23,298 bases of DNA. It comes from a virus. Position 1 is the stretch's first letter; the number at the start of each line of letters is the position of its first letter. The stretch lies in the IMG/VR virus record IMGVR_UViG_3300020438_004094, positions 1 through 23,298 of that record; one strand, given 5' to 3'. The notes beneath the pieces were generated by a model, which was not told the origin of the DNA, ran no database searches, and worked only from the letters and a program-made list of their open reading frames with translations. Below are positions 2,808 through 23,053 of the stretch, piece by piece. Position numbers and translations under genes: made by a program.

Positions 2808-5216
2808 ATGGCACTTAATCGTCTTACAAATATAACCAGTTCGGGACTTGGAAGTGTACATTCTTATGAAGTTGCTGGAGTAGTAGCAGTCGGTGTCATC
2901 ACTGCTTCTAGTTTTTCTGGCAATATTACTGGTAATATAACAGGAAATATAGTTGGTGATGTAACTGGTAATGTAACTGGTAATGTAACAGGAAACGTAA
3001 CTGGTAATACTTCTGGAACTGCTGGTGGATTAACAGGTTCTCCTAGTATTACAGTTACTGATATAACGGCATCAGGAAATGTTTCTATTGCGGGAACCTT
3101 AACTTATGAGGACGTAACTAACATTGATTCAGTTGGTGTTATAACTGCTAGAAGTGGTATTGATGTAACTGGAAATATTTTAGGGACTCAAGATCAAACA
3201 TTTATTGGTGCAAATACTTCTGATGGTTCAGATAATAAATCTGTAATGCTTGGTGGAGGTGGTGATACCTCTACTAATAGAGGTGCTTATGTATGGGTGA
3301 AGGGTAATGAATATTCTGGTGCTGGTGGTGAACTTATATTATCTGGAGGTGCAGTATCATCGGCTCTCATAGATTTTTATACTAATAGTGTACAACGAGC
3401 TAGAATTACATCTACGGGTGAACTAAACATAGGTGGAAGTTATACTCAAACAACAAATAAATTAAATGTTACTGGAACTGCATATGTTAGTAGCGATATA
3501 ACTGCAGGAGATGACATCATCGCTGCAGATGAGATAAGAAATAATGTTCCTGGTGATTTCTGGGCAGCAGATAATACATTTATTAATTTAAATGCGGTAG
3601 GTAACTTAACACATATGGGTGGTTATGAGACTAACTTAACATCAAATGGTTATCGTGATACAAATGGACAGTGGCAAAGTCTTGCAGCAAATAGTAACAC
3701 TGGTGCAGCACAAATAGGATTATCACCACAAGGAAATATTATTTTTAGAACTGATGCTTCTAAATCAAATGGAACAGCACATAATCCAACTGAAAGACTT
3801 CGCATCACATCAGCAGGAGAAGTTAAAATCGCATCTGGTGGATTTTTAACTATTGATACAAATCCAGCATCATCTTATGGTGTATCAGAAGCATTAAGAA
3901 TTGATGATGGTGGAGTGTCTAATGATAGAGCACTTCAAATTTTTGAGTATCAGCATAGTGGAGCAAGATCTCATAGAATTCAATTTAACACAAATACAAC
4001 TACAAATGGTTCTGCATATACTTACACTCAAGGTAATTATGGTGGATCATCATCAATAGAGTTTCATAATACTGGACATTTAATATTTTATACAGATGCA
4101 GAAGCTACTGGTGGTTCAACAGATAGTATTACACCATCAGAAAGACTTCGTATAGATTCTAATGGTAATGCAAGACTAGGACCAGGTGGAAATATTACAA
4201 ACTCTACTAACTATTCAACTTTAACTCTTGCAAATCTAGCAGGTGGTGTTATAGAGTTTGTAGATTCGGGTAATAACAATCTTGCAGGAAATATAATAGG
4301 TGCAGAAGGTTCTGGGATGTATATTTCCTCAAAACAAGATACTCCTATTATTTTTAGAACTGGTGCAAGTAATACTGAAAAACTTCGTATAACTTCTGAT
4401 GGTAAACTAATTCTCTCAATGACTGGGAGAACAACTCCACACACTGTTCAAGGTGATGGTGCGATGTTTATTGAGCAAAATTATGATGGTAACTTAGAAG
4501 CATTAACAATTAGAAATAAAGGTACTGGCGCAAGTGCCGCTACATCAATAGGTTTCAGTTTGAATAGAAGTGGTGGTGATTATGACTTCTTAGGTGGAGA
4601 GATTAAGTTAATAAAAGAACAGACTTGGACAACAACTGATTCGACTATTGATAGTGCAATGACCTTCAGCACTACGACAAATAATACTCTTACAGAAAGA
4701 CTTCGTATTACTCATGCTGGTAAATTATTAATTAATTATACCGATGTTGACGATTCTAATGCCCTCTTTCATGTTAACGGTCAATCGAAAGTTTCAAATA
4801 TTGTTACTGGGAGGGTGCATGATTCATCAAATAACAATAACAGAACAATTTTACTTTTTAGAATGAATCAAGGAAACAATGGGTTCCATTTTTCTGGTAA
4901 AATTTACATTAATAGTTATACCGGAAATGCTACGGTAGATTGCATTATAACTGTTAGATATAATGATCAAAATATTGCTGTTAATGTTATAGATGCTACA
5001 AATAGCAGTCAGATTGCTAAAGTTAACTTACGTGTGGTTACTGCTAATTATGGTTCGGATAGATATCTTGGAATCCAGAAAAATGGTGGAGGAACTGGTG
5101 TTGCCTACCTTAATGCTTTTGTGAGTGGTAATATTGATAACACTGGTGGTGGTGGCATAAGAGAAGTCAACAATAGTAGTTTGGGTAGTGTGACTAATGA
5201 AGGTAACTTAAATTAA
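2808..5216 (+). CDS. Large fibre-like virion protein with GN[IV]T repeats
   Basis: An 802-residue protein, starting MALNRLTNITSSGLGS 22 bases after a late-promoter-like motif. Residues about 38-70 are eight four-residue GN[IV]T-type repeats. A LTYEDVTNIDSVGVITARSG segment shared with the preceding paralogue follows. The rest is beta-rich with ERLRI/EKLRI units (DNA near 3789, 4138, 4376 and 4695) spaced by roughly 80-120 residues. The C-terminus (last ~130 residues, ending REVNNSSLGSVTNEGNLN) differs from the C1q-like ends of its two neighbours, so the tip module is different. Unusually rich in Asn, Thr, Ser and Gly. A virion fibre or host-interaction protein is inferred from composition, repeats and context. 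Confidence 0.72.
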   Translation: MALNRLTNITSSGLGSVHSYEVAGVVAVGVITASSFSGNITGNITGNIVGDVTGNVTGNVTGNVTGNTSGTAGGLTGSPSITVTDITASGNVSIAGTLTYEDVTNIDSVGVITARSGIDVTGNILGTQDQTFIGANTSDGSDNKSVMLGGGGDTSTNRGAYVWVKGNEYSGAGGELILSGGAVSSALIDFYTNSVQRARITSTGELNIGGSYTQTTNKLNVTGTAYVSSDITAGDDIIAADEIRNNVPGDFWAADNTFINLNAVGNLTHMGGYETNLTSNGYRDTNGQWQSLAANSNTGAAQIGLSPQGNIIFRTDASKSNGTAHNPTERLRITSAGEVKIASGGFLTIDTNPASSYGVSEALRIDDGGVSNDRALQIFEYQHSGARSHRIQFNTNTTTNGSAYTYTQGNYGGSSSIEFHNTGHLIFYTDAEATGGSTDSITPSERLRIDSNGNARLGPGGNITNSTNYSTLTLANLAGGVIEFVDSGNNNLAGNIIGAEGSGMYISSKQDTPIIFRTGASNTEKLRITSDGKLILSMTGRTTPHTVQGDGAMFIEQNYDGNLEALTIRNKGTGASAATSIGFSLNRSGGDYDFLGGEIKLIKEQTWTTTDSTIDSAMTFSTTTNNTLTERLRITHAGKLLINYTDVDDSNALFHVNGQSKVSNIVTGRVHDSSNNNNRTILLFRMNQGNNGFHFSGKIYINSYTGNATVDCIITVRYNDQNIAVNVIDATNSSQIAKVNLRVVTANYGSDRYLGIQKNGGGTGVAYLNAFVSGNIDNTGGGGIREVNNSSLGSVTNEGNLN
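2919..3014 (+). repeat. 12-bp tandem repeat encoding GN[IV]T units
   Basis: Eight consecutive 12-base units with consensus GGTAATGTAACT lie in the reading frame of the 2808 gene. The first units read GN-I-T and the later ones GN-V-T, and the array then decays into NTSGTAGG. Exact 12-mers recur among the central units, so slippage could change the copy number. Confidence 0.85.
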
Positions 5217-9038: not shown

Positions 9039-9376
9039 ATAAAGTAGAAAGACCTTGGGGATGGTATGAAACCATTCACGAAGGAGATAGATTAAAAATT
9101 AAAAATATTGAAGTCAATCCAGGACAAAGTATATCCTTACAATTTCACTATCACAGATCTGAGCATTGGGTAGTTGTTGGTGGAACTGCAAAGGTGCGAG
9201 TTGGTGATGAAGAAAAATTGTTGAGTCAAAATGAAAGCATTTATGTTCCTCAGACAGAAATACATCGTCTTTCAAATCCAGGACTAATACCTTTAAGAAT
9301 AGTAGAAGTTCAATGTGGTTCTTATCTTGAAGAGGATGATATTGTACGGATTGATGACAATTATGGAAGATCTTGA
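9035..9376 (+). CDS. Cupin mannose-6-phosphate isomerase (type II), stand-alone
   Basis: A single cupin domain of 113 residues matching the C-terminal isomerase half of bifunctional ManC/AlgA. Landmarks are RPWGWYETI (6-14), VNPGQSISLQFHYHRSEHW (28-46) with metal-ligand His38, His40 and His44/Glu43, the second cupin motif around His77 (EIHRLSNPG), and EVQCGSYLEEDDIVR. It should convert fructose-6-P to mannose-6-P, the entry to GDP-mannose and GDP-fucose. The pyrophosphorylase half of ManC is missing here. I chose the ATG at 9035 (ATGA overlap) over an alternative start at 9026. Its stop overlaps the -35 box of the gmd promoter. Confidence 0.85.
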   Translation: MNKVERPWGWYETIHEGDRLKIKNIEVNPGQSISLQFHYHRSEHWVVVGGTAKVRVGDEEKLLSQNESIYVPQTEIHRLSNPGLIPLRIVEVQCGSYLEEDDIVRIDDNYGRS

Positions 9377-21300: not shown

Positions 21301-21329
21301 TTGACAAAACTTTATATTTACTATATAAT
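21301..21329 (+). promoter_or_regulatory. Consensus sigma70-type promoter for the hli group
   Basis: TTGACA (21301-21306) and TATAAT (21324-21329) match the consensus exactly, with a 17-base spacer, 28 bases before the GTG start at 21357. Strong early expression of the following small photosynthesis-related genes is inferred. Confidence 0.85.
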
Positions 21330-21959: not shown

Positions 21960-22099
21960 GTATAGAATGGGCACAGGCAATTATTTTTTTATTGACACCC
22001 TTATTCTTTATGCTCCTCTTCATAGAAACTAATGAAGATGATGATGGACCACCAGATGGAGGGATGATGACACCAGTTTATGTGCCATCCCCCTCTTGA
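21956..22099 (+). CDS. Small membrane protein, 47 aa
   Basis: MSIEWAQAIIFLLTPLFFML gives one N-terminal membrane helix. An acidic linker (ETNEDDDGPPDGG) and a Pro-rich end (MMTPVYVPSPS) follow. It resembles small cyanophage membrane proteins of unknown function seen near hli and petF. Starts by ATGA overlap. Its stop (22097-22099) lies within the -35 box of the ferredoxin promoter. Confidence 0.6.
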   Translation: MSIEWAQAIIFLLTPLFFMLLFIETNEDDDGPPDGGMMTPVYVPSPS

Positions 22100-22124
22100 C
22101 AAAGTAACAAATTTTCTATATAAT
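22096..22124 (+). promoter_or_regulatory. Consensus sigma70-type promoter for ferredoxin
   Basis: TTGACA (22096-22101) and TATAAT (22119-22124) match the consensus exactly with a 17-base spacer, 22 bases before the ferredoxin ATG. The -35 box contains the stop codon of the preceding gene, as at the gmd promoter. Confidence 0.85.
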
Positions 22125-22146: not shown

Positions 22147-22437
22147 ATGGATTATAAGATTACACTTCAAACTTCTGATGGTGACGAAACCATTACTTGC
22201 CAAGATGATCAGTACATCTTAGACGCAGCAGAAGAAGCAGGAGTTGATATGAACTATTCCTGTCGTGCTGGTGCTTGTTCTTCCTGTGCTGGTAAAGTTA
22301 TCTCTGGCACAGTAGATCAGTCCGATCAATCTTTCTTGGATGATGATCAGATTGAAACTGGGTTTGTACTGACATGTGTTGCATATCCTACTAGCGATTG
22401 TGTAATTCAAACAGAACAAGAAGAGAATCTTTATTAA
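22147..22437 (+). CDS. petF: Plant-type [2Fe-2S] ferredoxin
   Basis: A 96-residue, very acidic protein with the plant-type cluster motif [11 protein letters not shown] (Cys39, Cys44, Cys47) and LTC (Cys77), near the usual length of 96-99. Ferredoxin accepts electrons from photosystem I and feeds ferredoxin-NADP reductase and bilin reductases. Phage copies probably redirect electrons toward nucleotide synthesis or phage-coded bilin reductases; no such reductase lies in this window. All four ligands are present, so it should bind the cluster. It has its own consensus promoter. Confidence 0.95.
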
Positions 22438-22459: not shown

Positions 22460-22615
22460 ATGACTAATCCTAATCAACTGTATGAAGACATGCAGAAACT
22501 GGATGATATGTACGAAGAACTTCTATGGCATCCAGATGATGAACTACAGTTTACTCACGACGGTGAAAAAATTATTATAACCAATAAGACTGTAGAAAAT
22601 AGAAAAAAAAGATAG
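22460..22615 (+). CDS. Small acidic protein, 51 aa
   Basis: MTNPNQLYEDMQKLDDMYEE and then LLWHPDDELQFTHDGEKIII form a helical, acidic N-terminal part and a short beta-like end with a basic tail (ENRKKR). It resembles a small conserved cyanophage protein without known function. It lies 22 bases after petF; a small hairpin (22436-22451) spans the petF stop. Probably co-transcribed with petF. Confidence 0.6.
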   Translation: MTNPNQLYEDMQKLDDMYEELLWHPDDELQFTHDGEKIIITNKTVENRKKR

Positions 22616-22631
22616 TGATGATTTCATCACA

Positions 22632-22639
22632 TATAAATA
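22632..22639 (+). promoter_or_regulatory. T4-type late promoter (TATAAATA)
   Basis: An exact TATAAATA, the T4 late-promoter consensus, lies in the 74-base spacer before the gene at 22690. It stands one base before a sigma70-type -35 box, giving a possible early/late tandem promoter leading toward the gene at 22690 and psbA. Confidence 0.55.
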
Positions 22640-22640
22640 A

Positions 22641-22668
22641 TTGACTTTTCAACTCTACTCTATATAAT
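22641..22668 (+). promoter_or_regulatory. Sigma70-type promoter embedded in a terminator hairpin
   Basis: TTGACT (22641-22646) and TATAAT (22663-22668) have a 16-base spacer. The -10 box forms most of the loop of the hairpin at 22651-22678, so promoter and terminator share DNA. Confidence 0.55.
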
Positions 22669-22684
22669 GAGTAGAGTTTTTTTT
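22651..22684 (+). terminator. Intrinsic terminator downstream of petF
   Basis: AACTCTACTC (22651-22660) and GAGTAGAGTT (22669-22678) form a perfect 10-bp stem with an 8-base loop, followed by T residues through 22684. It would end transcripts from petF and the 51-aa gene. Transcription starting from the -10 box in its loop would escape it, because only the second arm is transcribed. Confidence 0.8.
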
Positions 22685-22689
22685 ATTAT

Positions 22690-22851
22690 ATGCCGAAAAA
22701 TCAATTGGATAAAGATGAATTGATATGTCACGTTCTCAAACTCAAATCTGAAATTGATGGAGAACCAAAGACTGTTTGGCAGGGAGAAAAAGATTTGGCT
22801 CACAAGTATCTAAATCGAGTCTTAAATCAGATTCAACAATATAGGTATTGA
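22690..22851 (+). CDS. Small conserved-type cyanophage protein, 53 aa
   Basis: MPKNQLDKDELICHVLKLKS and then EIDGEPKTVWQGEKDLAHKY are charged and helical, ending RVLNQIQQYRY. I recognise the pattern as a small hypothetical protein that often occurs near psbA or structural genes in T4-like cyanophages; its function is unknown. Preceded by the late/early promoter and terminator composite and followed 3 bases later by the psbA promoter. Confidence 0.68.
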   Translation: MPKNQLDKDELICHVLKLKSEIDGEPKTVWQGEKDLAHKYLNRVLNQIQQYRY

Positions 22852-22854
22852 TGC

Positions 22855-22883
22855 TTGACAGGTTGGGGAAACCGTAGTATACT
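22855..22883 (+). promoter_or_regulatory. Sigma70-type promoter for psbA
   Basis: TTGACA (22855-22860) and TATACT (22878-22883) are 17 bases apart. An overlapping ACTAAATA (22881-22888) is a 6 of 8 match to the late consensus and might allow later transcription too. The psbA start codon is 171 bases beyond the -10 box. Confidence 0.8.
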
Positions 22884-23053
22884 AAATAAATCAGTAAGTT
22901 AAGGATCCAACACAATTCTTAACTCTTCTTTACACGCCTCACCAAGACTAAACAGCGTGTCTAAACAACAGTCTTTAATACCTGCCTCTGAGGGTGAGAC
23001 AGGAATATTTTACTTAGTGTTCCCCGCACTTATATCTAACCCTTTTCAAAACA
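22884..23053 (+). promoter_or_regulatory. Long structured psbA leader
   Basis: The ~165-base untranslated leader contains several complementary segments. AGTTAAG/CTTAACT is at 22897-22903/22918-22924. ACACGC/GCGTGT is at 22932-22937/22955-22960. AAGACT/AGTCTT is at 22944-22949/22970-22975. An imperfect CCTGcCTC/GAGaCAGG stem is at 22981-22988/22996-23003. The second and third pairings interlock, so they can form an H-type pseudoknot or two alternative states. No ORF of note and no T run are seen. A role in psbA mRNA stability or translation is inferred. Confidence 0.5.

Follow-up and report, generated by a model that had tools for sequence, protein, structure and literature searches.

Promoter-early stem-loops (PeSLs) of T4-type phages were reportedly described by Arbiol in 2010 and by Comeau in 2014, and RB49 is said to be one of the phages in which they were described. 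They are also described in two citing papers (PMC4503421, PMC3950731). In the second of these, the haloarchaeal virus HGTV-1 carries TATA-box and inverted repeat motifs before many of its ORFs, which its authors compare with PeSLs (PMC3950731). Within the titles and abstract openings of a limited collection on promoter-terminator overlap in phages, no case of a -10 or -35 box serving as the loop of a terminator was found.

Here, we analyze a junction between two small genes in a virus record of 23,298 bases (IMGVR_UViG_3300020438_004094), the whole of which is referred to as the window, and whose hli, ferredoxin, and psbA genes resemble marine cyanomyovirus ones. The gap between a 51-aa ORF and a 53-aa ORF is 74 bases long and contains all parts of the element (Table 1). 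The sequence-only reading had described TTGACT-16-TATAAT with its -10 box in the loop of a perfect 10-bp stem followed by a T run, and both direct reading and the promoter and terminator scans agree with it. The promoter is near the sigma-70 consensus (11/12 in the promoter scan), and the terminator scan recovers a perfect stem with 10 pairs, 4 of them G-C. RNA spanning 22641-22686 has a predicted folding energy of -14.4 kcal/mol (z -4.7), which was matched by none of 200 shuffles. The promoter (22641-22668) is nested in the terminator, and the two take up ~44 bp altogether (22641-22684). From the expected transcription start, the leader of the 53-aa ORF would measure ~15 nt, with no clear Shine-Dalgarno site. 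Other signals in this part of the window include a PhotoRC-II cis-regulatory RNA in the psbA leader (RF01717, 58.5 bits, gathering 39; 22920-23016, +), a TTGACA-17-TATACT promoter upstream of that RNA (22855-22883), and two consensus-perfect TTGACA-17-TATAAT promoters (+), located at 22096-22124 before petF and at 21301-21329 before an hli-like gene.

Table 1 Coordinates of the nested element and its flanking genes in the window
Feature	Position	Strand	Evidence and remarks
petF	22147-22437		one gene above the 51-aa ORF
51-aa ORF, phrog_728, function unknown	22460-22615	+	last gene upstream of the element, preceded by petF
TATAAATA, match to T4-type late promoter motif	22632-22639	+	read directly; probably no working part of the element
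-35 box, TTGACT	22641-22646	+	direct reading and promoter scan; GAC in 61/64 homologous elements
Promoter spacer, 16 nt	22647-22662		direct reading
Terminator stem, left arm, AACTCTACTC	22651-22660	+	within the promoter spacer; terminator scan, folding, covariation
Loop, 8 nt, TATATAAT	22661-22668		ends with TATAAT
-10 box, TATAAT	22663-22668	+	inside the loop, which is nearly invariant over 12 distinct stem-loops
Terminator stem, right arm, GAGTAGAGTT	22669-22678	+	would carry the expected transcription start, ~A22675
Eight-T run	22677-22684	+	first two T belong to the right arm; T run conserved in homologs
53-aa ORF, phrog_566, function unknown	22690-22851	+	ATG at 22690; proposed gene for the restarted transcript

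Between positions 4000 and 23298, the window holds 85 candidate promoters (79.0 expected from shuffles) and 11 candidate terminators (8.5 expected). Since both counts are near the shuffled expectation, neither class alone proves much; their nesting does. With a nested element defined as a stem of 8 or more plus a T tract, 300 dinucleotide-shuffled versions of the window yielded 0.00 elements per shuffle for promoters of 11/12 and 0.027 per shuffle when the promoter was relaxed to 9/12, and none was present when the 74-nt intergenic stretch alone was shuffled 20,000 times.

In viral contigs, 149 relatives of the 53-aa gene were found, and 80 of these loci were examined along with the window and S-SKS1 (82 loci in total). 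The element occupies the same place at 64 of the 82, in the form of 12 distinct stem-loop sequences. Across these 12, 98.3% of the stem cells are paired, 5 of the 10 pairs have changed on both sides, and the covariation score of the stem was equalled by none of 500 shuffles, while the loop is nearly fixed as TATATA(A/C)T. A stem that changes by compensation around a loop that hardly changes argues for selection on both the hairpin and the -10 box. The GAC of the -35 box is kept at 61 of the 64 loci, with 16 or 17 nt separating it from the -10 box in every one of the 61, and the full box reads CAGACA, which is weaker than consensus, at 37 of the 64.

The element test failed at 18 of the 82 loci, 17 of which lack a candidate, while locus L158 fails by register, with the late-type TATAAATA sitting in its hairpin loop. 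At loci L194/L195 and in SynMITS9220M01 (loop ATAAC) the hairpin is retained and the promoter is lost, which indicates that the two functions can part. Among other phages, the hairpin of DSL-LC03 carries AAATAC in its loop, a late-like motif is present at the 53-aa gene of Bellamy, and no such hairpin was found at the 53-aa gene locus of Sf-FS3. Homologs of the gene come straight after talC in Syn9 and S-RIM2, and straight after plastocyanin in S-8S53 and S-PRM1. From its presence and absence across these named phages, the element comes and goes with gene arrangement. Where present, it stays with the 53-aa gene, and the upstream neighbours vary by lineage (the window and L132, the S-SKS1 type, and L193), which would match a module border and is consistent with shuffling.

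Late-type words also occur at this gene in other arrangements. A (T)AAATA word with no clear -35 box lies in or across a hairpin loop upstream of the 53-aa gene at L158 (~1238-1245), L194 (~1472-1479), and DSL-LC03 L772 (~9122-9127). In the diverged homologs L196-L199, L203-L205, L208, L209, and Bellamy L754, the short leader of the 53-aa gene contains a TTAAATA or TATACATA-like word and, after it, a hairpin; this may be a late promoter combined with a 5′ hairpin.

Viral contigs were also surveyed for the pattern TTGACW-N14-18-TATAAT-N6-14-TTTTTT, where identical matches were counted once and a match was considered nested if a stem of at least 7 pairs, at least 3 of them G-C, spanned the -10 box. 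The matches, which are samples of unknown randomness from viral contigs and cellular genomes, were nested in 25 of 118 distinct viral cases among those listed. This compares with 0 of 112 listed viral matches for a scrambled -10 box (Fisher p 1.7e-8), 3 of 109 for wrong spacing (Fisher p 1.3e-5; one of the three also has a correctly spaced -10), and 1 of 116 listed matches for the same pattern in cellular genomes (Fisher p 2.2e-7). The 25 nested matches among those listed occupy tight gene junctions, in which the -35 box follows the stop codon by a median of 6 nt and the ATG follows the T run by a median of 11 nt, and an ATG within 40 nt is found for 23 of 25 nested versus 25 of 93 plain matches among those listed (p 3e-9). 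Arm sequences differ between phages. When one long ORF per locus was compared with PHROGs (the 25 nested matches and locus L398), 19 of 26 matched a family, including DNA polymerases, a clamp loader, a major head protein, terminase, and ribonucleotide reductases, a variety that probably reflects more than a single phage group.

Eight complete cyanophage genomes, which hold 373 terminators in 1.54 Mb, revealed a second register of overlay, with the -35 box as the loop. In these genomes, 22 promoters have their -10 box at +20 to +29 nt from a terminator loop centre, versus 5 for a reversed-word control (p 0.0012), and in many of these cases the loop consists of TTGAC or a near form, with the T run inside the spacer. 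Nesting of this kind is seen in 6 of 6 strict and 8 of 11 looser matches from the eight genomes; examples with a TTGAC loop and the T run in the spacer are L762, L780, L790, L819, L820, and L838. A TTGAC-in-loop scan returned 29 of 124 matches versus 2 of 114 when the word was reversed, among the matches listed (p 1.6e-7), and the spacer is 17 nt in 27 of those 29. In cellular loci the count was 1 of 23, where the control gave 1 of 1. Both registers are present in S-SKS1, which carries one -10-in-loop copy and further -35-in-loop copies. The homolog of the window element in S-SKS1 has its stem at ~31876-31909 on the minus strand of HQ633071.1. Like the window element, the -35-in-loop overlays of cyanophages and other viral contigs share bases between promoter and terminator and keep near-fixed promoter spacing; unlike it, they use TTGAC as the loop, place the T run in the spacer, and start past the terminator.

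Shared-base overlays of promoter and terminator recur at gene junctions of other phages and are rare in unselected viral DNA. The notion that phages in general commonly carry nested elements was rejected on 3.57 Mb of viral loci picked without regard to nesting, which gave 0 of 35 matches in the -10 register under a looser pattern, 2 of 47 in the -35 register, and no peak at the loop in an offset scan.

The best reading of the locus, and a probable one on the sequence evidence, is a compact PeSL variant in which a nested promoter-terminator would both stop and restart transcription. Host RNA polymerase arriving from the side of petF and the 51-aa gene would make the whole hairpin and the U run and be released. 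On the same DNA, host sigma-70 holoenzyme would bind the -35 and -10 boxes and start in the right arm, at about A22675. Because a start within the right arm would leave the new RNA without the left arm, that RNA could not form the hairpin and would be extended into the 53-aa gene. The claim that a start in the loop leaves half of the stem agrees with this, and folding of the RNA from the nested start predicts neither the terminator hairpin nor any unusual structure. One stretch would in this way insulate two neighbouring units, probably early ones, and start the second. Two parts of the original description need adjustment. Readthrough was to be stopped from petF, for which the terminator anatomy holds, but the directly upstream gene is the 51-aa ORF and petF is one further. 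The picture of an insulator with a restart is supported by anatomy, conservation, and recurrence, but without the late promoter as a working part. Features that weigh against a nested stop and restart are a stem with just 4 G-C pairs, a spacer of 16 rather than 17 nt, the weaker -35 box of many homologs, the loci that keep the hairpin but not the promoter, and the rarity of nesting in unselected viral DNA.

Other readings accommodate parts of the same evidence. If the hairpin were a terminator alone, the promoter boxes would be chance matches in an AT-rich loop; AT-rich DNA often has TATAAT-like words, and the hairpin outlasts the promoter in SynMITS9220M01 and L194. We consider this unlikely, since terminator loops usually vary freely and this one is nearly fixed while the stem changes, the -35 GAC persists at 16-17 nt in 61 of 64 loci, and the survey result hinges on the exact -10 word and its spacing among the matches listed. 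A palindrome that covers a -10 box is a classic kind of operator, and the stretch could instead be a promoter with a palindromic repressor operator around its -10 box and no termination. That account is highly improbable given the T run that follows the right arm in homologs, the arms that differ between phages where one repressor would keep them constant, and the tolerance of G-U pairs in the stem cells of the 12 stem-loops (11 versus 2 other mismatches), a pattern that favours selection on a putative RNA hairpin over a DNA operator. Exposure of the -10 box through cruciform DNA appears disfavoured, as an extruded cruciform would disrupt the distance between the two promoter boxes. A further proposal is compatible with the nested stop and restart and adds to it, namely that after release at the T run the polymerase does not leave the DNA but starts again at the promoter on which it sits, which would couple the two units rather than insulate them. 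According to two papers, E. coli RNA polymerase in vitro slides after termination and reinitiates at nearby promoters (PMC6978380; PMC11347151), and such recycling, along with stop and start sites ~10 nt apart in the window element, lends this hand-over some plausibility. A terminating polymerase could just as well block the promoter, and the 2020 paper describes the process as not observed in vivo (PMC6978380); we therefore regard the hand-over as possible if rather doubtful.

The sequence-only reading had overlaid three signals within 53 bases by counting TATAAATA as a late promoter; the early promoter and the terminator stand, and the motif is present but is not supported as a working part. 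In a three-part element, the late promoter would shut the early promoter late in infection by overlapping occupancy, or would yield an RNA of ~40 nt. The motif abuts the early promoter. As a lone 8-mer it is weak evidence by itself. Counting both strands, the window contains 4 copies of the ATAAATA core versus 10.6 expected, and the other three are found 14-28 nt ahead of ORF starts (930+, 2808+, 16576-), so the motif is probably genuine in this phage; its scarcity and these placements suggest that the word may be avoided elsewhere in the window. At this place, however, the NATAAATA motif is common only to the window and its close sisters L132-L134 among the 64 element loci, and the terminator hairpin stands between TATAAATA and the ATG, leaving no open path to the gene. 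RNA from TATAAATA would begin near 22645 and contain the whole hairpin, so it should stop at once. Elsewhere, late-type TAAATA motifs cluster behind terminators rather than ahead of them, at +20 to +29 nt in eight cyanophage genomes (21 versus 8 in the control, p 0.021). On these three grounds TATAAATA was rejected as a working part of the composite, and a three-part element is quite improbable. A late-promoter version of the nested element was also rejected as a class: TATAAATA followed by T6 gave stems in 3 of 120 matches versus 0 of 137 with ATAAATAT, among the matches listed (p 0.1), and the single cases (L158, L194/L195, DSL-LC03) are suggestive.

Phage genomes can place the stop and start signals of neighbouring genes in identical bases, and the patterns used here offer a simple rule by which such junctions can be recognized in sequence; separate promoter and terminator callers may misread them. 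Overlays are also natural test sites for on-the-spot restart by terminated polymerase. We tentatively propose that they form a compact punctuation of phages, with two registers (-35 or -10 as loop) that let the same bases serve promoter and terminator at near-fixed promoter spacing. These overlays would fill whole junctions and would stop and start transcription in ~44 bp per module, maybe passing the terminated polymerase to the next gene. In L158, L194, and DSL-LC03, the loop word may have been swapped for late-type TAAATA, changing the timing and keeping the stop.

Among described systems, the HGTV-1 motifs resemble the window element in joining a promoter-like box with an inverted repeat, and differ in having an archaeal promoter. 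PeSLs are nearer: in them, a short cassette between genes likewise carries an early sigma-70 promoter together with a stem-loop terminator. The strong sigma-70-like early promoter of a PeSL is represented in the window by the conserved, presumably early 11/12 TTGACT-16-TATAAT, and the attached stem-loop terminator, as judged by sequence, by the covarying 10-bp stem with eight T and -14.4 kcal/mol. PeSLs are also described as marking places of module exchange and as recurring in similar copies within a genome; the 23-kb fragment holds one such element. Our scan of RB49, covering 150 of its 164 kb, recovered mostly tandem copies, with a hairpin, TTGACA 14-32 nt past the stem, and then the -10 box (12 listed). 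The offset of the -10 box from the loop centre is mainly +50 to +69 in RB49 and ~0 in the window element, which unlike most RB49 copies nests its promoter in the hairpin, within ~44 bp, and in a cyanophage. The window element lacks the tandem layout, and since in one RB49 copy a 13-bp stem is closed by a TATAAT loop, in the same geometry as the window element, that layout may not be defining. The PeSL kind is already known, and the nested overlay is a tightly overlaid form of this phage element.
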